Source of the DNA: Microbacterium ginsengisoli
GTDB taxonomy: Bacteria > Actinomycetota > Actinomycetes > Actinomycetales > Microbacteriaceae
Direction of reading: 5' to 3'
Length of the DNA: 64,000 nt
NCBI RefSeq assembly: GCF_000956535.1
Contig: NZ_JYIY01000072.1
Span: 1 to 64,000 of the forward strand
Below, piece by piece: positions 2,593 through 17,192 of the stretch; positions within the stretch are counted from its first letter, which is position 1, and the number at the start of each line of letters is the position of its first letter. A program made the translations under genes and the position numbers. The notes under the pieces are model-generated. The model was not told the DNA's origin. It worked only from the letters and a program-made list of their open reading frames with translations, and did no database searches.

Positions 2593-2671
2593 GGTGGCTC
2601 CAATGGTCGGAGGGGGAGAGTGCGAGAAATCGCGGATGCCGCGGGCCGGCGGCATCCCCCGAGTCTAATCG

Positions 2672-3241
2672 TCAGCGGGCGCCGCACTGGGCGGCGTAGG
2701 CGGAGTCGAGGACGCCGTTCGGGTCGTCGAGCGGCGTGTAGGCGACGCCGACGGCCGCCCCGAGGGCGAATCCGACCGACACGGTGGCGCTGGCGGCGCT
2801 GGTCGCCGCGGGCGTGGCGCGCGGGGAGGCGTCCGTCAGGGCCTCGGCGGCCGCCGTGGCAGCGCTGCCCGTCTCGTCGCAGATCATCTCCGGAAGCTGC
2901 ACGGCGATGCGCGCCTCCTCACCGGCGGCGACCGAGCTGGAGACGGCGCCGACGCGGTAGCCGAGGCCGAGGAAGCGGGGGTCGTCGATGCGCACCCGGT
3001 TGATGACGATCGGCTGGGTGGTGTCGTTGCGCACCACGAGGTAGGCCTCTTGGCCGCTCGTCGAGGTGACGATGCTCGGCGCCGTCTCGGGCGACGTCGC
3101 GAGCCACGCGGTGATGCCCGTCGGCAGCGCGGTCGCCGACGGCGCCGGGTGCGCGACGGCGCGGCCGGCGCAGCCGGCGAGGAGGCCGATCGCGGCGACG
3201 GCGACGAGGGCCGTGGCGGCGAGGCGCGGCATCCGGATCAT
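2672..3241 (-). CDS. Putative lipoprotein, unknown function
   Basis: A 189-residue protein with a lipoprotein signal: basic start, hydrophobic stretch (residues about 8-22), and lipobox LAGC. It should be exported and lipid-anchored. The rest has no recognised domain; it is rich in Ala, Thr and Val with one internal segment typical of small beta-sandwich surface proteins (YLVVRNDTTQPIVINRVRI). Its ATG overlaps the menC stop codon (ATGA), so it is translationally coupled to menC, although nothing links it functionally to menaquinone. An alternative start is the second methionine, four residues in. Confidence 0.75.
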   Translation of the reverse strand: MIRMPRLAATALVAVAAIGLLAGCAGRAVAHPAPSATALPTGITAWLATSPETAPSIVTSTSGQEAYLVVRNDTTQPIVINRVRIDDPRFLGLGYRVGAVSSSVAAGEEARIAVQLPEMICDETGSAATAAAEALTDASPRATPAATSAASATVSVGFALGAAVGVAYTPLDDPNGVLDSAYAAQCGAR

Positions 3242-4395
3242 CGGCGCACCTCCTCGCGCACGACGGTGAACTCATCGAGGGCGACCGGATCGATATCGAT
3301 GCCGAGGCCGGGACCGGTGGGAACGTCGACGTGCCCGTCGACGAGGGTGATGGGGTCGCGCACGATGTCCTGCGTGTAGAAGCGGTTCGAGGCCGACACG
3401 TCGCCGGGCAGGGTGAAGCCGGGGAGCGCGGCGAGGGCGGCGTTCGCGGCGCGGCCGATGCCCGTCTCGAGCATGCCGCCGCACCACACCGGCACGTCGG
3501 CGTTGCGGCACAGGTCGTGGATGCGCACCGCCTCGAGGTAGCCGCCCACGCGTCCGGCCTTGATGTTGATGACGGATGCCGCGCCCAGCGCGAGCGCGTC
3601 TCCGGCGGCCTTGAACGAGGTGATCGACTCGTCGAGGCAGACGGGCGTCGACAGGCGCTCGGCGAGGGTGGCGTGGTCGACCAGGTCGTCCTCCTGCAAG
3701 GGCTGCTCGATGAGCAGCAGGTCGAAGCGGTCGAGCTCGACGAGCGTGTCGATGTCGGCGAGCGTGTAGGCGGAGTTCGCGTCGACCTGCAGGGGGATGT
3801 CGCCGAACGCGTCGCGTACCGCTGCGGTGTCGGCGACGTCGCGGCCCGGCTTGATCTTGATCTTGATGCGGCGGTAACCCTCGGCGAGGTAGCCGGCGAC
3901 GGTGTCGACGAGCGTCGACGCGTCGCGCTGGATGCCCACCGAGACGCCCGAGGGGATCCGCGGCACGACGGCGCCCAGGCGCTCACCGAGTGAGCGGCCC
4001 TCGCTGCGCAGCGACGCGTCGAGAACGGCGAGCTCGAGGCCGGCCTTGGCCATGCGGTGGCCGACGATGGGGGCGAGCGTGCCGGCGACCTCCTCGGGGG
4101 CGAGGCGGTGACGGTCGAGCAGCGCCGGGATCAGGAAGCGGCGCGCCACGTCCCATGCGCCCTGCGTGTACTCGCTCGAGTAGAGCGGCGCCTCCTGCGT
4201 GACGATCTCGCCCCAGCCGTCGCCGTCGGAGGTGAGCGCCCGCACGACGATGACCTCGCGCACCGACTCGGTGCCGAACGAGGTCGTGAAGGGACTCACG
4301 AGGGGGATGTGCAGCACCCGCAGCTCGATGCCGTCGAGCGTGACGGATCGGCAGGATTGTGGGGAAGGCACGCCTTTCAGGGTACCGAGGGGCAT
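3238..4395 (-). CDS. menC: o-Succinylbenzoate synthase / enolase-superfamily racemase
   Basis: An enolase-superfamily enzyme of 385 residues, expected to dehydrate SHCHC to o-succinylbenzoate in menaquinone synthesis. Catalytic marks of the MenC / N-acylamino-acid racemase branch are in place: the KIKIKPG lysine pair, VDANSAY, LIEQPL and CLDES metal ligands, and NIKAGRVGG with the second catalytic lysine. The open frame runs much further upstream (to 5271), but the enzyme homology begins near the ATG at 4395, which has GGGGG six bases before it. No other men genes are in view, so an N-acylamino-acid racemase role cannot be excluded; sequence alone often does not separate the two. Confidence 0.88.
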   Translation of the reverse strand: MPLGTLKGVPSPQSCRSVTLDGIELRVLHIPLVSPFTTSFGTESVREVIVVRALTSDGDGWGEIVTQEAPLYSSEYTQGAWDVARRFLIPALLDRHRLAPEEVAGTLAPIVGHRMAKAGLELAVLDASLRSEGRSLGERLGAVVPRIPSGVSVGIQRDASTLVDTVAGYLAEGYRRIKIKIKPGRDVADTAAVRDAFGDIPLQVDANSAYTLADIDTLVELDRFDLLLIEQPLQEDDLVDHATLAERLSTPVCLDESITSFKAAGDALALGAASVINIKAGRVGGYLEAVRIHDLCRNADVPVWCGGMLETGIGRAANAALAALPGFTLPGDVSASNRFYTQDIVRDPITLVDGHVDVPTGPGLGIDIDPVALDEFTVVREEVRR

Positions 4396-4457
4396 GCTGT
4401 GCCCCCGCTGAAGAACGCCCGCCGTCACCGGATCGTGATCGGGTGCGGAGCCGGGTC

Positions 4458-5228
4458 TCAGACGAGGGGGCGGATGCCGACGGGGAGCCCGTCGTCCGCG
4501 ACCTCGTCGACGAGCCGGTCGAGCGCCGTGAGGGCGGCACGCTGCGGCCACGGACCGAACGAGACGCGGGCGACGCCGAGCGCGGCGAGCACGGGGAGCG
4601 GGAGCGACCCCGGAGCGGCGAGAACGCTGAGCCTTCCGGGCCCGAACGCGGCGACGAGCTCGCGCACCTCGGGCTCGTCGAGCACGCCGGGCACGAACAC
4701 GCAGGTGGCGCCCTCCGCGAGGTAGGCGCGCCCACGGGTGATCGCGTCGGCCAGCGACTCCGCACGGCCACGGCCCTCGGCGCGCAGGAACGCATCCGTT
4801 CTGGCGTTGAGGGAGAACGGCGCGCCCGCGGCATCCGCCGCCTCGACAGCGGCCGCGACCGCCGCGCTCGCCGCCGCGAGCGGTCGCAGTTCGTCCTCGA
4901 GGTTCGCGCCCACCACGCCCACGTCGATCGCGCGGCGCACGGTTGCCGCGGGGTCGCCGTAGCCCGCCTCGAGGTCGGCGGTCACCGGCAGCGTGGTCGA
5001 CGCGACGATGCGCTCGACGGTGGCGAGGTGCAGCTCGAGCGGGATCCGCTCGCCGTCGTCGTAGCCGAAGGCTGCCGCGATCGCGTGACTGGCCGTCGCG
5101 ATCGCGCGGGTGCGCGGGTGGGCGGCCACGACCCGGGCGGAGGCGACATCCCACACGTTCACCAGGGTCAGCAACGGCGGATCGGTGTGCAGCGCGCGCA
5201 GCGCGGCGCCCTTCTCGACGATCGACAT
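4458..5228 (-). CDS. Isocitrate lyase / PEP mutase family protein
   Basis: A 256-residue single-domain member of the phosphoenolpyruvate mutase / isocitrate lyase superfamily, which makes or breaks C-C or C-P bonds next to a carboxylate. Visible elements are LVNVWDVASARVV at the N-terminus, PVTADLEAGYGD (the Mg-binding acidic loop), ANLEDEL, and NARTDAFLR. The usual KKCGH loop of true isocitrate lyase is missing, so a mutase, oxaloacetate decarboxylase or carboxyvinyl-phosphonate type reaction is likelier. Start ATG at 5228. It is divergent from the N-acetylglutamate synthase gene with 69 bases between them. Confidence 0.85.
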   Translation of the reverse strand: MSIVEKGAALRALHTDPPLLTLVNVWDVASARVVAAHPRTRAIATASHAIAAAFGYDDGERIPLELHLATVERIVASTTLPVTADLEAGYGDPAATVRRAIDVGVVGANLEDELRPLAAASAAVAAAVEAADAAGAPFSLNARTDAFLRAEGRGRAESLADAITRGRAYLAEGATCVFVPGVLDEPEVRELVAAFGPGRLSVLAAPGSLPLPVLAALGVARVSFGPWPQRAALTALDRLVDEVADDGLPVGIRPLV

Positions 5229-11549: not shown

Positions 11550-12407
11550 TTAGGCCGCGGACGCGGCCTGTGTGGTCATGATTGCTTCGAACTCGACGGG
11601 GGTCAACTTGCCTAGGACCCGTTGCCGACGTCGCCGGTGGTAGGTCCGTTCGATCCAGGTCACGATGGCGAGGCGGAGGTCTTCGCGGGTGGCCCATCGG
11701 CGGCTGTTGAGCACGTTCTTCTGCAGGAGCGCGAAGAACGATTCCATGGCCGCGTTATCTCCGGCAGCGCCGACTCTGCCCATGGAGCCGACGAGCCCGT
11801 GGCGGTCGAGTTCTGCTTGGAAGCGCCGGGAACGGAACTGGCTGCCTCTATCGCTGTGAACGGTGGTGCCGGCGGGGTTGCGGCGTTGGATCGCCATCCG
11901 CAGGGCCGAGACGGCAAGCTCGGACGTCATGCGTTCGTTGATCGAGTAGCCGACGATCCGATTCGACCAGACGTCCTTCACGGCGCACAGGTAGATCTTC
12001 CCTTCACCGGTCGGGTGCTCCGAGATGTCGGTGAGCCAGAGCTGGTCAGGGCCGGGTGCGGTGAACTCGCGCCGGACGAGGTCATCCCGCACCGGAGGGC
12101 CGACCAGGCGCCCCTTCCCGCGACGTTTGCGGACGAACGCGCTGAAGATCTCGTTCTCCGAACACACCCGCCACACCCGCCGCTCCGACGCGGTAAACCC
12201 CGCCGCAGCGAGCTCGTCCGCGATGAACCGGTAACCGAACGCCGGGTCGTCGGCATGCACGTCGATCGCCGCGTTGATCAGATGAGCATCGTCCCAGTCC
12301 CGCTGAGACACGGGATCTTGCAGCCGCCAGTGGTACGGCTGTTTCGCGAACGTCAGCACCCGACACGTCACCGCGACGGGAGTACCGTCGGCGGCGAGTT
12401 CACTCAC
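11550..12407 (-). CDS. IS3-family transposase OrfB (DDE integrase core)
   Basis: 285 residues forming the catalytic part of the IS3 transposase. An N-terminal helix-turn-helix-like HTH_21 region (YRFIADELAAAGFTASERRVWRV) precedes the rve domain with the DDE triad: Asp in LTDISEH, Asp in VHSDRGSQF, Glu in NAAMESFFALLQ. It starts with GTG at 12407, overlapping the OrfA stop (GTGA). In this family the active protein is normally an OrfA-OrfB fusion made by frameshifting near such an overlap. Both frames are intact, so the element may still be active. Confidence 0.93.
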   Translation of the reverse strand: MSELAADGTPVAVTCRVLTFAKQPYHWRLQDPVSQRDWDDAHLINAAIDVHADDPAFGYRFIADELAAAGFTASERRVWRVCSENEIFSAFVRKRRGKGRLVGPPVRDDLVRREFTAPGPDQLWLTDISEHPTGEGKIYLCAVKDVWSNRIVGYSINERMTSELAVSALRMAIQRRNPAGTTVHSDRGSQFRSRRFQAELDRHGLVGSMGRVGAAGDNAAMESFFALLQKNVLNSRRWATREDLRLAIVTWIERTYHRRRRQRVLGKLTPVEFEAIMTTQAASAA

Positions 12408-12709
12408 GAGCGGGTAGAGCCTTTTGGGCCAGACAGGTTCGCCTGTGACAGATACGCCGCCGCGCGGCGGAGGATCTCGACCTCCTGCTCGAGCAGCTTC
12501 ACCCGCTTACGCAGCTCATGGTTCTCCGCGGCCTCGCTCGAGGTCACGCCGGAGCGGCGACCACCGTCGACGTCGGCGATCTTCACCCAGCGCTGCACAC
12601 ACGACTCGGAGATCCCAAAGTCCTTCGCGATCTGCGAGAACGACGACTCCCGACGCAACGCGATCGCGACCACGTCATCCCGGAACTCCTTGGGAAACGG
12701 CTTAGGCAT
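12404..12709 (-). CDS. IS3-family transposase OrfA (DNA-binding)
   Basis: A 101-residue DNA-binding subunit. An HTH of the transposase-8 type (FRDDVVAIALRRESSFSQIAKDFGISESCVQRWVK) is followed by a leucine-rich coiled coil (ELRKRVKLLEQEVEILRRAAAYL) used for multimerisation. I place the start at ATG 12709 (MPKPFPKEFR), the usual beginning for the family; the frame is open 33 bases further upstream. Its end overlaps OrfB by four bases. Confidence 0.92.
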   Translation of the reverse strand: MPKPFPKEFRDDVVAIALRRESSFSQIAKDFGISESCVQRWVKIADVDGGRRSGVTSSEAAENHELRKRVKLLEQEVEILRRAAAYLSQANLSGPKGSTRS

Positions 12710-12770
12710 GAGGACATCCTTCCAGCGGCGACAAATCGCCACAGGTCAGGAGTCACCTAAACCCTCAGCA

Positions 12771-13321: not shown

Positions 13322-14566
13322 TCAGCCGCGGAGAATCCTGATCCCCTGATCGAAGGTGTCCGCGAAGCGCTCGATCTCGGACTGTCGGATTCGGTTTGTG
13401 GCTGCGGCGTCGCGCCATCCCTCCAGCACGTCGCCGATGCGATCCAGTTCCGCTTGGGCGGCGCGCTCACTGAGTCGACATGCGCGCGCGAGCTCTTTCA
13501 GACCGTCTGCCTCGTCGTCCGGGTCGCTGGCCCCGGCGATCGTGGTCTGGCGCGCCTTCGGATCGGGCTCGGGGTTGATGTCGAAGGCGGGGCTAAGGGC
13601 CCAGCCGGCTTCGCTTCGCAGGAACCCGTGATTGCGTAGGTGGTCGTCAGTGTTGTGCAGCCCAACGCTAACCGCGACGCGCCGGAACAGCTCACCGAGG
13701 TCGTGCTTTACCCGGCCGCCGGCTTCCTCGATCCGTTCCGCGATCTCCACATAGTCGCCCCCGTCGCCGTCGCGCCGCTCGAGGAGAGTCATCGCGCTCA
13801 TGTAGCCAAGACGTGTGCCGTCGGCATGGCGGTCGAAGCGGTCGAGGAGCAGCACATGCCGACCATCCAGCTGGATGAGTTGATACGTCGGGACGATGAC
13901 ACCGGCGGCTTTCGCGAGGTCGAGTGCTGTAGCCTCCCAGGCCATCACGTCCCATCCGTCGTCGGGGTGAGGGAACTTCGCGATGAGGAGCTGGTCGTCG
14001 TCGCCCCGCACGGCAGCCTTTGGACGGGCGCCACCGAGAGAGCCAGTTCCGGCATCGAGCAGCGTCTTGACTGCGGTCAGCTCGTGGTCACCGTCGTCGC
14101 GCGCTGCGTCCTCCGATGCGCGCATGAGTTCGGGCAAGCGAATCATGCTCGGCACGACGGGGTCCGGATCGAGGAAAGGAGAGCTCGCATCTTCGCGGAA
14201 TCGGAGCGCACCCTGGCGGGTGAAGTCGCTGACACCGGCGAGAAAGTCCACGTCACCCAGCGTGCGCGGCCGACGCTTTTGCTCCAGGGCGAGAGTCCGC
14301 TCCCGCTTGGTGATGAGATTGCGCCCCCAGCGGTCAGGGGCACAGTCCGAGAACGCGCCGGGCAGCCCCGAGGCCTGCTGGGACCCGCTGTAGAGCTCCA
14401 AGCCTGGATCGAGCGCGTACGCCAGAGGATGAGCGAGGTAGTCAGGGTCGTACTGGAACATCGTGGAGGCCAACCGCCCCCGGGTGTGGTTGAACTGAGC
14501 TCGGCCGGCGCGAACGGTCTCTGTCCCCAGGCTGACGTGCACCTCAAGGGCCTCGAAACCGGTCAT
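13322..14566 (-). CDS. hipA: HipA-family toxin kinase
   Basis: Toxin of a type II toxin-antitoxin module. HipA kinases phosphorylate a target, in E. coli glutamyl-tRNA synthetase, stalling translation and favouring dormancy. The 414 residues show the HipA N-domain (ALDPGLELYSGSQQASGLPGAFSDCAPDRWGRN fold region, near residues 50-85), the Gly/Ser autophosphorylation loop GTGSLGGARPKA (about 172-184), the catalytic NTDDHLRNHG (about 304-313) and the metal-binding SPAFDINP (about 326-333). All key residues are present, so it should be an active kinase. Its ATG overlaps the hipB stop (ATGA), the usual antitoxin-first arrangement. It lies in an IS-flanked island. Confidence 0.94.
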   Translation of the reverse strand: MTGFEALEVHVSLGTETVRAGRAQFNHTRGRLASTMFQYDPDYLAHPLAYALDPGLELYSGSQQASGLPGAFSDCAPDRWGRNLITKRERTLALEQKRRPRTLGDVDFLAGVSDFTRQGALRFREDASSPFLDPDPVVPSMIRLPELMRASEDAARDDGDHELTAVKTLLDAGTGSLGGARPKAAVRGDDDQLLIAKFPHPDDGWDVMAWEATALDLAKAAGVIVPTYQLIQLDGRHVLLLDRFDRHADGTRLGYMSAMTLLERRDGDGGDYVEIAERIEEAGGRVKHDLGELFRRVAVSVGLHNTDDHLRNHGFLRSEAGWALSPAFDINPEPDPKARQTTIAGASDPDDEADGLKELARACRLSERAAQAELDRIGDVLEGWRDAAATNRIRQSEIERFADTFDQGIRILRG

Positions 14567-14886
14567 CGGACTCGCTTCCGGCCGATGAGACCAGCGCGGG
14601 CGCGGCCGAGGTCTGTGTTCAGTGGATCGAGCGCGTCGGCGAGCGTGTCGAGCACGCCGAGAGCGCGAGCGACTCTCAGGACGACATGGAAGCCCACCGC
14701 GGGATCGCCGTGCTCCAACCGACGGAGAGTCCCCCGTGAGATGTCGGCACGCTCCGCCACCTGCTCAGCTGTCAGTCCAAGAATCTTCCGCCACGCAGCG
14801 AAGTCGTCACCGATCTCCTCGGCGGCACGGCGCACCTTCGGAGGCAACGGCGCGGTGTCCGCTGGACGCCGCTTAATGGAAGACAT
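14563..14886 (-). CDS. hipB: HipB-like antitoxin, XRE-type HTH
   Basis: 107 residues with a central Cro/C1-type helix-turn-helix (WRKILGLTAEQVAERADISRGTLRRLEHG, about residues 31-60). It would neutralise HipA and repress the operon. ATG 14886 is preferred over the ATG at 14895: the latter lies inside the -10 box, and transcription should begin at about 14886-14887, making the antitoxin message leaderless. The C-terminus is basic (GRARAGLIGRKRVR). It lacks the Trp-ending tail of E. coli HipB, so recognition of HipA may differ. Confidence 0.9.
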   Translation of the reverse strand: MSSIKRRPADTAPLPPKVRRAAEEIGDDFAAWRKILGLTAEQVAERADISRGTLRRLEHGDPAVGFHVVLRVARALGVLDTLADALDPLNTDLGRARAGLIGRKRVR

Positions 14887-14893
14887 GCAGATC

Positions 14894-14922
14894 ATTATCG
14901 CTTGTAAAGGTCATTATGTAAA
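14894..14922 (-). promoter_or_regulatory. hipBA promoter with overlapping direct repeats
   Basis: Read on the minus strand: -35 TTTACA (14917-14922), a 17-base spacer, and -10 GATAAT (14894-14899). The A/T-rich block stands out from the GC-rich surroundings. Within it, CATTAT followed by GTAAA occurs twice on the plus strand (from 14893 and from 14912), a plausible HipB operator covering both promoter boxes. This is a sequence-based inference. Confidence 0.75.
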
Positions 14923-15093: not shown

Positions 15094-15152
15094 CGTAGCG
15101 CCGCGGCGCTACGCCTAGGCCGTGTTGCTAAACGTGGTCGGGCGCTTCGGGG

Positions 15153-16058
15153 GTGAGTCTTGGATGCGTGTCGCGTGATGTGATCTCGGATGAAGCATGG
15201 GCTGTGATCGGCCCGTTGTTCCCGAATGTGAAGTCGACGGGGCAGCCGCCGGTGGATCGGCGCACGGTCGTCGAGGCGACAGCGCGGCGGTTCCGGACCG
15301 GGGCACCGTGGCGGGATGTGCCGGAGCGGTTCGGGAACTGGAACACGATCTACAAGAACTTCAACCGGTGGTCCGAGCAGGGGGTGTGGGCGCGGGTGCT
15401 GGAGAGGACGCAGTCGCTCGCGCAGCAGTCCGGGGATCTGGACTGGGTCGCGTCGATCGACTCCACGATCGTGCGCGTGCACCAGCACGGCGCGACACTT
15501 CCCCGGACTACAGGGGGCGACATCGAACTACAAGAAGTTCGGCGACGAGCCACCTGATCATGCGATCGGCCGCTCTCGCGGCGGGCTGACGACGAAGAAT
15601 CACCTGGTTTGCGACGGGAAGGGACGCGCCCTCGCGTTCATTCTCACCCTGGGGCAGGCGGCAGATACCAGCATGCTCGCCGCGACGCTGAGCGAGATTC
15701 GCGTCCCGGGCGCGAGAGGCAGGCCGAGATCGAGGCCGAACCGGGTGCTCGCTGACAAGGGCTACCCGTCGAGGGCGAATCGGGCGTGGCTGCGCGAGCG
15801 CGGGATCGCCTCGACGATTCCCGAACGCGACGATCAGATCGCTCACCGACGCAAGCGCCGCGGCCGACCGATCGACTTCGGCGATCAGCAACGGACCCGC
15901 TACCGCGGCCGTAACGTCGTCGAGAGGTGCTTCAACAAACTCAAACGGTGGCGCGGGATCGCGATGCGCTCAGACAAGACCCCCGCAACTACCACGCCGG
16001 CCTCTGCCTCGCCGCAACCCTCCACTGGCTCACCAGTAGCGCCAGCAATACGGGCTAA
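15153..16058 (+). pseudogene. IS5-family transposase, frame broken twice
   Basis: The first frame (GTG 15153) encodes the DUF4096/IS5 N-terminus (SDEAWAVIGPLFP, FRTGAPWRDVPERFGNWNTI, and the first Asp in ASIDSTIVR). At the GGGGG tract near 15516-15520 the reading must move +1 to continue with NYKKFGDEPPDHAIGRSRGGLTTK and the second Asp (VLADKGYPS) and Glu (NVVERCFNKLKRWR). At the CCCCC tract near 15980-15984 it must shift back to finish with NYHAGLCLAATLHWLTS and the TAA at 16056. The first shift could be programmed, as in some IS427-type elements; the second looks like a lost base. Homopolymer sequencing error is a further alternative. Confidence 0.82.
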
Positions 16059-16420
16059 TCGTCGAACACTTCGGCTTTCGTGGTTTCAGGATCCGCGAGG
16101 CCGATCACTACGCGGCTGTATGGCTCGCCGGACAACTCAATCCGCAGCCCGCGTGGCGTGTCTGAGTGCACGAGAGCGAGCGTGATTCCGCGCTCTTCGC
16201 CGTTGCGGAAGGTTCCCACGGCGGTCGTGTCGGGAACATATCGGCCCGCGAGCTTGAAGTCTCTTCCCCACCCTTTGATCTGCTCATGTGCGTCGTCCAG
16301 AACCTCCACGGAGGTGACGTTGCTCAACGAGAAGCGAGTCGACGCGAGCAATCCTTCAACCTTCTCGAACACCGACAGAGTGACCACGGCATCGGAGCCA
16401 TCACGAGTTATCTGAGCCAT
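16055..16420 (-). CDS. IS5 passenger gene, conserved small protein of unknown function
   Basis: 121 residues, no signal or membrane segment, mostly predicted beta-strand, with the phrases VTLSVFEKVEGLLAS, VTSVEVLDDAHEQIKGWG, FKLAGRYVPDTTAVGTF and LALVHSDTPRGLRIEL. I recognise this as a small actinobacterial family seen in many genomes as a hypothetical protein, not a transposition protein. Its stop codon overlaps the transposase stop tail to tail (TAA 16056-16058 against 16055-16057). TACTCT (minus strand, 16427-16432) lies six bases before its ATG, so it seems to have its own leaderless promoter inside the element. Function unknown. Confidence 0.8.
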   Translation of the reverse strand: MAQITRDGSDAVVTLSVFEKVEGLLASTRFSLSNVTSVEVLDDAHEQIKGWGRDFKLAGRYVPDTTAVGTFRNGEERGITLALVHSDTPRGLRIELSGEPYSRVVIGLADPETTKAEVFDD

Positions 16421-16533
16421 GCGCCCAGAGTAACTCGCGCGCTGAACACCAATGCCGAACGCCCTGATCCATCAGCATCGACGCATCGGTAGGCACAACG
16501 TCCGGTAAGTGAACCGCGTTTAGCAACACGGCC

Positions 16534-17087
16534 TAGCCCTCGTCGCCGCCGCAGCGCGTGCATCTTGCGGACCACGTAGACGCCGTAGTTCTCCGCATGC
16601 AGCCGCACGATCTCCGGGATCAACAGCTCGTCCCGAAGCTGCCGGGCGGACGCGGGCCGCGCTTTCGCAGCCCGGTATCCGCGGGCGGTGAGGAACCCCA
16701 CCTCGGCGTGCCGCATCACACGGCAGACGAGCTCGACCAGGAAACGACTACGCATCCTGTCAACGAACGCGATCATCTCGACGAGCGGCGGCCGAGCTCG
16801 GTCGCGAAGAACACGCTCGCTGACCGGAGGATCTCGTTCGCCCCCTCCAACTCGGCGATCTACTTCTTCAACCGTTTGATCTCCGCTTGGGCCTCGCTCG
16901 AGGTCCCCGGCTGACGGCCCTCGTCGACGTCGAGGCGCTTCTTCCACAATCGCAGCGTCTCGGGATTGACCCGGAGGTTGGCGGCGAGGTGCGTGATCGC
17001 GGCGTGATCGGTCTTGTGATCGGGGCGAGCCTCGCTCAGCATCCGCAGCGCACGCTGACGGAACTCGTCCGGATACGGTCCTGGCAT
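16534..17087 (-). pseudogene. Remnant of a second IS3-family element (OrfA and start of OrfB)
   Basis: OrfA starts at ATG 17087 (GGAGG eight bases upstream) with MPGPYPDEFRQRALRM, an HTH (ITHLAANLRVNPETLRLWKKR) and EAQAEIKRLKK, then hits an in-frame TAG at 16860-16862. Beyond it the same frame continues IAELEGANEILRSASVFFATELG, so the stop replaces what is usually Glu. The beginning of OrfB follows (MIAFVDRMRSRFLVELVCRVMRH ... YGVYVVRKMHALRRRRG) and ends at the IS5 border. The catalytic DDE part is absent on both sides of the IS5 element. It is a different IS3 lineage from the complete element at 11,523. Confidence 0.85.
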
Positions 17088-17192
17088 AACTCCATCCTCC
17101 AAAAGGAAAGGACGGAACGAAACGCAGGGAGAATCATTCACCAGATCGGCCCCAGTTTTGGCCGGGGCCGATCTGCGTTGTGGGGTGCGGCC

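Follow-up and report, generated by a model that had tools for sequence, protein, structure and literature searches.

IS1595 is the type case of the transporter IS (tIS). Transporter IS elements are described as insertion sequences that carry passenger genes (PMC9330008, PMC3129680, PMC7986276), and the examples described elsewhere include an IS6-family element (PMC7986276) and actinobacterial IS481, ISL3 and ISNCY elements with passengers (PMC6305408). The IS231 group is described as modular, with additional genes located between the transposase and one of the ends (PMC2266710), and MICs are described as elements without a transposase of their own (PMC3129680), MIC231 being named in a title cited by PMC2266710. 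IS1237 of Leifsonia xyli is described as an 899-bp element of the IS427 group of the IS5 family whose transposase needs a frame change (PMC2516522). In the passages of the literature that were searched, no prior report of an IS5-family tIS or cargo lineage was found; ISfinder lay outside that scope, and a prior listing there is possible.

The window analyzed here is a stretch of 64,000 nucleotides of Microbacterium ginsengisoli DNA (contig NZ_JYIY01000072.1), and the preferred reading, to which a probability of roughly 0.78 is given, is that it holds an IS5-family transporter IS, IS427-like, from an actinobacterial lineage that has repeatedly enclosed neighboring host genes. What is new here is the context, that is, bare relatives set against cargo relatives with many kinds of cargo. 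An IS of this sort is usually annotated as a transposase only and its extra gene as an ordinary neighbor, as in the plasmid records of relatives.

The element and its passenger gene

The element occupies 15118-16533 (1416 bp) and ends, as an earlier note on this DNA had claimed, in perfect 17-bp inverted repeats, which lie in CTAG targets. The left terminal repeat, GGCCGTGTTGCTAAACG, runs from 15118 to 15134 on the plus strand and the outer right one, a perfect match to it, from 16517 to 16533 on the minus strand, with CTAG at 15115-15118 on the left flank and at 16533-16536 on the right. Together with the flanking CTAG the terminal arms are 24 nt long and 96% complementary. CTAG stands on both sides and is palindromic, so it fits more than one length of the target duplication. 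Relatives with the same ends were found as well, in many cases bounded by the same 15-bp end sequence (GGSCGTGTTGCTAAA). A chance pairing of the two ends was ruled out by the perfect repeats, the CTAG targets and the many relatives.

One full copy of the element was found in its own genome (3.05 Mb), the assembly of which is fragmented into 80 contigs and has an estimated contamination of 6.3%, and no second copy of the right flank of the element is present in that genome. A scan of little power, for which 0.3 sigma-70 promoters are expected by chance, detected no sigma-70 promoter and no terminator within the element. The surroundings are a patch of broken mobile DNA. Directly to the left lies a hipBA-type pair, formed by a HipA-like kinase (HipA_C, Couple_hipA; 13322-14895, minus strand) and an overlapping small HTH protein, and transposase remnants with HTH_Tnp_1 matches and a weak HTH_21 match were seen at 16408-17141 and 12404-12742 (minus strand).

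The element has both a DDE transposase and short terminal inverted repeats, the features by which it was placed in the IS5 family. The transposase is divided on the plus strand between orfA (15153-15557, 134 aa; PF13340, IS5_3) and an orfB part with the DDE domain (DDE_Tnp_1, PF01609; approximately 15510-16058) that ends, in the frame of its relatives, with the TAA at 16056-16058, and NCBIfam NF033580 (transpos_IS5_3) matches both parts above its cut-off. A G-run at 15513-15517 of the plus strand (GGGGG) would carry translation from orfA to orfB by a -1 shift, and a run of at least four G is found at this junction in 45 of 46 printed rows, L055 being the exception and several rows being copies of one element. 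Two overlapping frames joined by a frameshift mark the IS427 group, to which the element, with its orfA, orfB and G-run, may belong. The C-run at 15980-15984 (plus strand) contains a one-base frameshift, after which the last 30 or so residues of the transposase are read in another frame than the preceding part of orfB, which suggests that the window copy may now be defective or that the base call may be wrong. Both transposase motifs were found in 17 elements, in the same frame in 14 and in different frames in three (the window, L073 and L142).

Between the transposase and the right end lies the passenger gene (16055-16420, minus strand), which encodes a 121-aa protein and has a putative leaderless promoter in the form of a TANNNT box (TACTCT, 16427-16432, minus strand) 6 nt before its ATG. 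The profile matches of the transposase and this open frame inside the ends agree with the earlier description of the locus as an IS5-family element that carries a gene other than the transposase. The encoded protein belongs, as a distant member, to a family that was said to be widespread in actinobacteria, and a profile built from five members did detect this family in 47 of the 248 genomes searched in the order, counting the own genome. Among the profile matches listed are ten genus genomes (again own included), each with a member, and the chromosomal paralog in the own genome lies at C73:23333-23671. A search with the single sequence gave matches in 4 of 249 genomes of the family and in 8 of 295 of the genus, own genome included, with 27-34% identity outside the own genome and no relative above 34% in the 295 genus genomes; identity to the 27 family members that were compared is 18-28%. 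The protein has no match in Pfam or NCBIfam, and a profile search of the PDB gave best matches of only E 0.2 and 0.42. Its structure was modeled, as had been proposed, and the two predictions consist mostly of strands at low confidence (mean pLDDT 52 and 48); the protein may be a PH-like bacterial domain. A phage, plasmid or defense gene was ruled out as its identity, since tblastn found no match in phages or plasmids and PADLOC gave no hit.

Bare, cargo-carrying and transposase-less relatives

The end pattern CTAGGSCGTGTTGCTAAA was found in at least 118 stretches of named genomes and in two viral contigs, and 13 of the 398 genomes searched in the family had matches. The left 946 bp of the window element have a match of some degree in 141 of 295 genus genomes, and 14 genus genomes besides its own match at 80-89% over at least 844 bp. 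Among elements with GCTAAA-type ends and a transposase there are 23 bare copies (922-944 bp) and 34 cargo copies (1192-2912 bp), and the cargo lies to the right of the transposase in 29 of the latter and to the left in five. It should be noted that an element entered this tally only if both ends and a transposase were found, that no record was counted twice, and that bare and cargo proportions are not a census because stretches in which both ends were not found were left out. Records counted once, recognized by contigs of equal length, are L223 = L124, L235 = L029, L225 = L057, L228 = L054 and L145 = L011, and L142 is made up of L040 and L067 as its halves; L054, cut by a contig end, was left out of the complete elements, and L077 (the inner part of the L143 element, on the same contig) and the inner L046 copy were excluded. 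Identical pairs inside the tally are L022/L127, L221/L222 and L011/L144.

Three further elements have both ends and cargo and no whole transposase: L031 (2396 bp, 2624-5019), L079 (773 bp), which keeps short pieces of the deleted transposase gene, and L096 (563 bp). A sister subgroup with GTTGATCAA ends comprises three bare and two cargo copies; in L010 of this subgroup an annotated DUF6226 gene runs through the outer end, and L015, also with these ends, carries a small hypothetical gene in an M. paraoxydans plasmid. The viral contigs (L134, L135) share the same end with a 100% identical interior and no transposase match. Interiors next to the ends of L030, L062, L104 and L132, from different actinobacteria, are at least 90% identical, and an element with cargo on the left was resolved only in L104.

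Across the relatives there are over 20 kinds of cargo, about two dozen. Those named by Pfam or NCBIfam, in a scan that did not extend to L098 and L147, include MerR-TipAS (L055), GAPDH with TetR (L035), LysE with AsnC/Lrp (L115), MerA mercury(II) reductase, above cut-off (L076), PIG-L (L071), a formyltransferase (L118), a glyoxalase (L217), an aldo/keto reductase (L219) and GNAT proteins (L112, L220 and the transposase-less L079). The other named cargoes are CPBP/Rce1 (L057), DUF1254/DUF1214 (L058), AHSA1 (L070), Imm8 (L054), EXLDI (L011), an L-PSP/RidA type protein (the transposase-less L096) and, by weak matches, a P-loop kinase-like protein (L109, L031). The scan gave no match for the cargo proteins of L049, L086, L012, L089, L015, L227, L104 and L073. 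In nine pairs covering five cargo types the dN/dS of the cargo is 0.17-0.40, which indicates that the compared cargo genes have been kept as coding genes. A mercuric reductase cargo was also seen in two Brachybacterium species, L076 and L123, at 90% amino acid identity and a dN/dS of 0.19; both ends of the L123 element were not resolved.

The passenger in the window is probably host cargo as well and not a transposition factor, because sister elements carry cargoes that show no relationship among themselves and because ordinary enzymes and regulators make up most of the cargoes that could be identified. It could instead be an accessory IS gene for transposition or its regulation, since the element encloses it as a small open frame and since L089, an element of the same group, encodes a distant relative of it in the opposite orientation (23% identity, E 2e-4 in a single comparison). 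However, the genes in most sister elements are unrelated and bare elements have no such gene, and the passenger family has chromosomal members in many genomes, own genome included, so that an accessory function is very unlikely. The first 928 bp of L089 are 88% identical to those of the window element, and the two captures of this family look independent.

Cargo elements move as units, as is seen in relatives of the window element. Two 1550-bp copies with the EXLDI gene (L144/L145) are 100% identical and occupy two sites on one Leifsonia plasmid. L141 from Brachybacterium equifaecis (Dermabacteraceae) and L086 from Janibacter indicus (Intrasporangiaceae) are 99.8% identical over 1303 bp, L143 from Arachnia (Propionibacteriaceae) and L046 from Bowdeniella (Actinomycetaceae) are 98.5% identical over 1958 bp, and L142 from Microbacterium hominis and L070 from Arsenicicoccus piscis (Intrasporangiaceae) are 86% identical along their entire 1.4 kb. 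The 600-bp flanks did not match in any of the four pairs. The suggestion that element and passenger moved as one unit is thus upheld on relatives. In a tree of 47 transposase rows the cargo and bare labels need 8 changes, compared to an average of 14 by shuffling, although row L077, labeled bare there, is in fact the inner part of L143 and the contrast between these two is not an independent change. The window falls among 11 rows that all carry cargo and form a group, with near-copies (L086/L141) and shared cargo (L070/L142) in it; the support for this group is only 88/89 and it was drawn open.

The comparison of related copies with and without the passenger gave a mixed outcome. No second copy of the element with this passenger was found in the own genome, the 295 genus genomes, the 249 family genomes, plasmids or phages, and there are bare relatives with the same ends, so the passenger looks like a single capture. 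However, many relatives carry other genes, which makes capture itself recurrent, and with about two dozen other cargo kinds among its members the element family repeatedly picks up and spreads host genes. A passenger in so small an element had been called unusual, which may hold for IS in general but does not hold for this lineage. The locus might still be an accident in which a host gene happened to have an IS on one side and a solo end on the other, the 1416-bp stretch never having moved as a unit. The pairing found only here and the frameshifted transposase are in keeping with this, but CTAG stands at both outer ends, many sister elements share the layout with four pairs that demonstrably moved, and the contrast of perfect outer 17-bp ends with a decayed inner end suggests that the outer pair was kept in use. 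Such an accident is therefore considered improbable.

The inner junction and the origin of the outer end

The passenger stops with TAG at 16057-16055 and the transposase with TAA at 16056-16058, so that both codons fall within the four letters CTAA at 16055-16058, which confirms the overlap reported from the sequence earlier. The same letters lie within a decayed inner right end with a decayed CTAG target (16041-16058, plus strand) that matches an intact end plus CTAG at 12 of 18 letters (shuffle p=0.019) and is positioned +12 nt after LHW, as is the end in the bare copies L022, L110 and L221. L049 has an inner relic of the same kind (13/18, p 0.004). No relic was seen in the other 19 of 21 tested elements, and the combined p for all 21 is 0.75, so the relic is a finding on two elements and not a rule; with 2 of 21 significant, a general inner-end relic across all cargo elements was ruled out.

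In the same genus, the bare L221/L222 are two identical 938-bp copies, 84% identical to the window over 925 bp, with an intact end exactly where the window has a degenerate one. The distance from CTCACCAG to the end of the target is 30 nt in both; the transposase frame of L221/L222 ends FSNTA with the TAG of the target as its stop, and that of the window ends ASNTG with TAA. In bare copies the transposase frame enters the right end, and its stop is inside the end (L050 type) or in the flanking CTAG (L022 and L221 type). Homology of cargo copies to bare copies ends where the bare transposase frame stops. Since the overlapping stops lie within the decayed inner end and CTAG, at the point where bare relatives end, the passenger was most likely a neighboring host gene that was enclosed once a more distal end took over. 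The earlier note had taken the tail-to-tail join as a sign of long partnership, and this is not supported; an insertion scar in the stop codon of the passenger fits best, and with the join read as a decayed CTAG plus a decayed inner IS end, the pairing of passenger and IS looks specific to this lineage.

For the window element we infer the following order of events. An ordinary IS of about 0.94 kb, with a transposase frame running through its right end to a stop in the CTAG target, would have inserted into a CTAG containing the stop codon (TAG) of a host gene, so that the transposase gene and the host gene came to lie tail to tail. A second end would then have become available beyond the gene and the inner end would have decayed, and a transposase acting on the left and the distal right ends could have made the gene travel with the IS.

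Beside the repeat, 42 outer ends, including several copies of one element type, were compared with IS interiors, and for L224, L054, L143, L046, L147 and L049 the match exceeds all 975 control segments; L096 equals the control maximum, and L115 and L071 are at p 0.009. The use of blastn adds second-IS remnants at L073 (87 bp, 89%) and L079. At least six distinct element types thus have such remnants (L054/L224, L046/L143, L147, L049, L096 and, by blastn, L073), pointing to a second IS copy, direct or inverted, and to collapsed composite transposons. At the outer end of the window no IS remnant was detected beyond the repeat (16/30, p=0.31), and a second-IS origin of this end was not supported. 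These tests support the collapse of composites for several elements and leave it as only possible for the window.

Neither test found an IS remnant beyond the repeat in 33 of the 42 outer ends, that of the window included, as would be expected if the transposase used end-like sequences in the host flank by one-ended or bypass transposition, with no second IS. However, at least six element types do carry second-IS remnants, and most outer ends match at least 13 letters of the 15-bp consensus, which is much for a chance host sequence. Relaxed end choice of this kind is rather unlikely, though not negligible. The preferred reading remains a transporter IS that enclosed a neighboring gene. In a broader and tentative form, for which the odds are somewhat below even, this IS5 lineage would be a platform for gene capture that possibly lands at gene ends, in which collapse of copies or loss of the inner end regularly gives a one-gene transposon. 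In the group of 11 tree rows around the window, all with cargo, the cargoes would have been exchanged again and again as the elements passed between actinobacterial families. Landing at gene ends may be favored because the transposase frame runs through the right end into a CTAG target that contains a TAG stop.

Comparison with described elements

More than 20 kinds of host gene, carried singly, are found in one small IS lineage, which has taken some of them from one actinobacterial family to another; among the carried genes are those for a mercuric reductase, acetyltransferases and an immunity protein. The stages on the way from IS to transposon appear frozen side by side, as the bare IS, the relic inner end, the second-copy remnant at the outer end and the transposase-less cassette, and with all of them in one lineage, the question of how transporter IS arise can be put to the test in a simple system.

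IS1237 and ISLxx6 resemble the window element as IS5-family elements from a related actinobacterium, and they belong to the IS427 group (PMC2516522), as the window element may. However, no passenger is mentioned in that description, on which the comparison is based. The lineage resembles composite transposons in that two IS copies or ends enclose host DNA, with remnants of the second copy in several cargo elements, but the tallied cargo elements have one recognizably whole transposase gene in a single-IS layout.

The IS231 group and MIC231 share modular extra genes and transposase-less cassettes with the window lineage, as far as they are described in the sources cited above (PMC2266710, PMC3129680). 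In those descriptions they belong to the IS4 family and the Bacillus cereus group and have the extra DNA to the left of the transposase, whereas the window lineage belongs to the IS5 family and has it mostly to the right; unlike in IS231 and MIC231 as described there, the relic of a former end is found in two elements of the window lineage and remnants of a second IS in several. The window element has a (frameshifted) transposase and is not a MIC, whereas L031, L079 and L096 fit the MIC definition.

The closest likeness is to transporter IS, which are described as having one pair of ends, a transposase of their own and a passenger unrelated to transposition (PMC9330008, PMC3129680, PMC7986276). 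The window element is a tIS under this definition, as its passenger lies inside one pair of IS ends and is from a family that is chromosomal elsewhere; movement as a unit, seen in its sister elements, may extend to this copy. Compared to the IS6, IS481, ISL3 and ISNCY examples as they are described (PMC7986276, PMC6305408), this lineage differs in that it belongs to the IS5 family, mostly carries one small gene, and has gathered many different cargoes within one close lineage.
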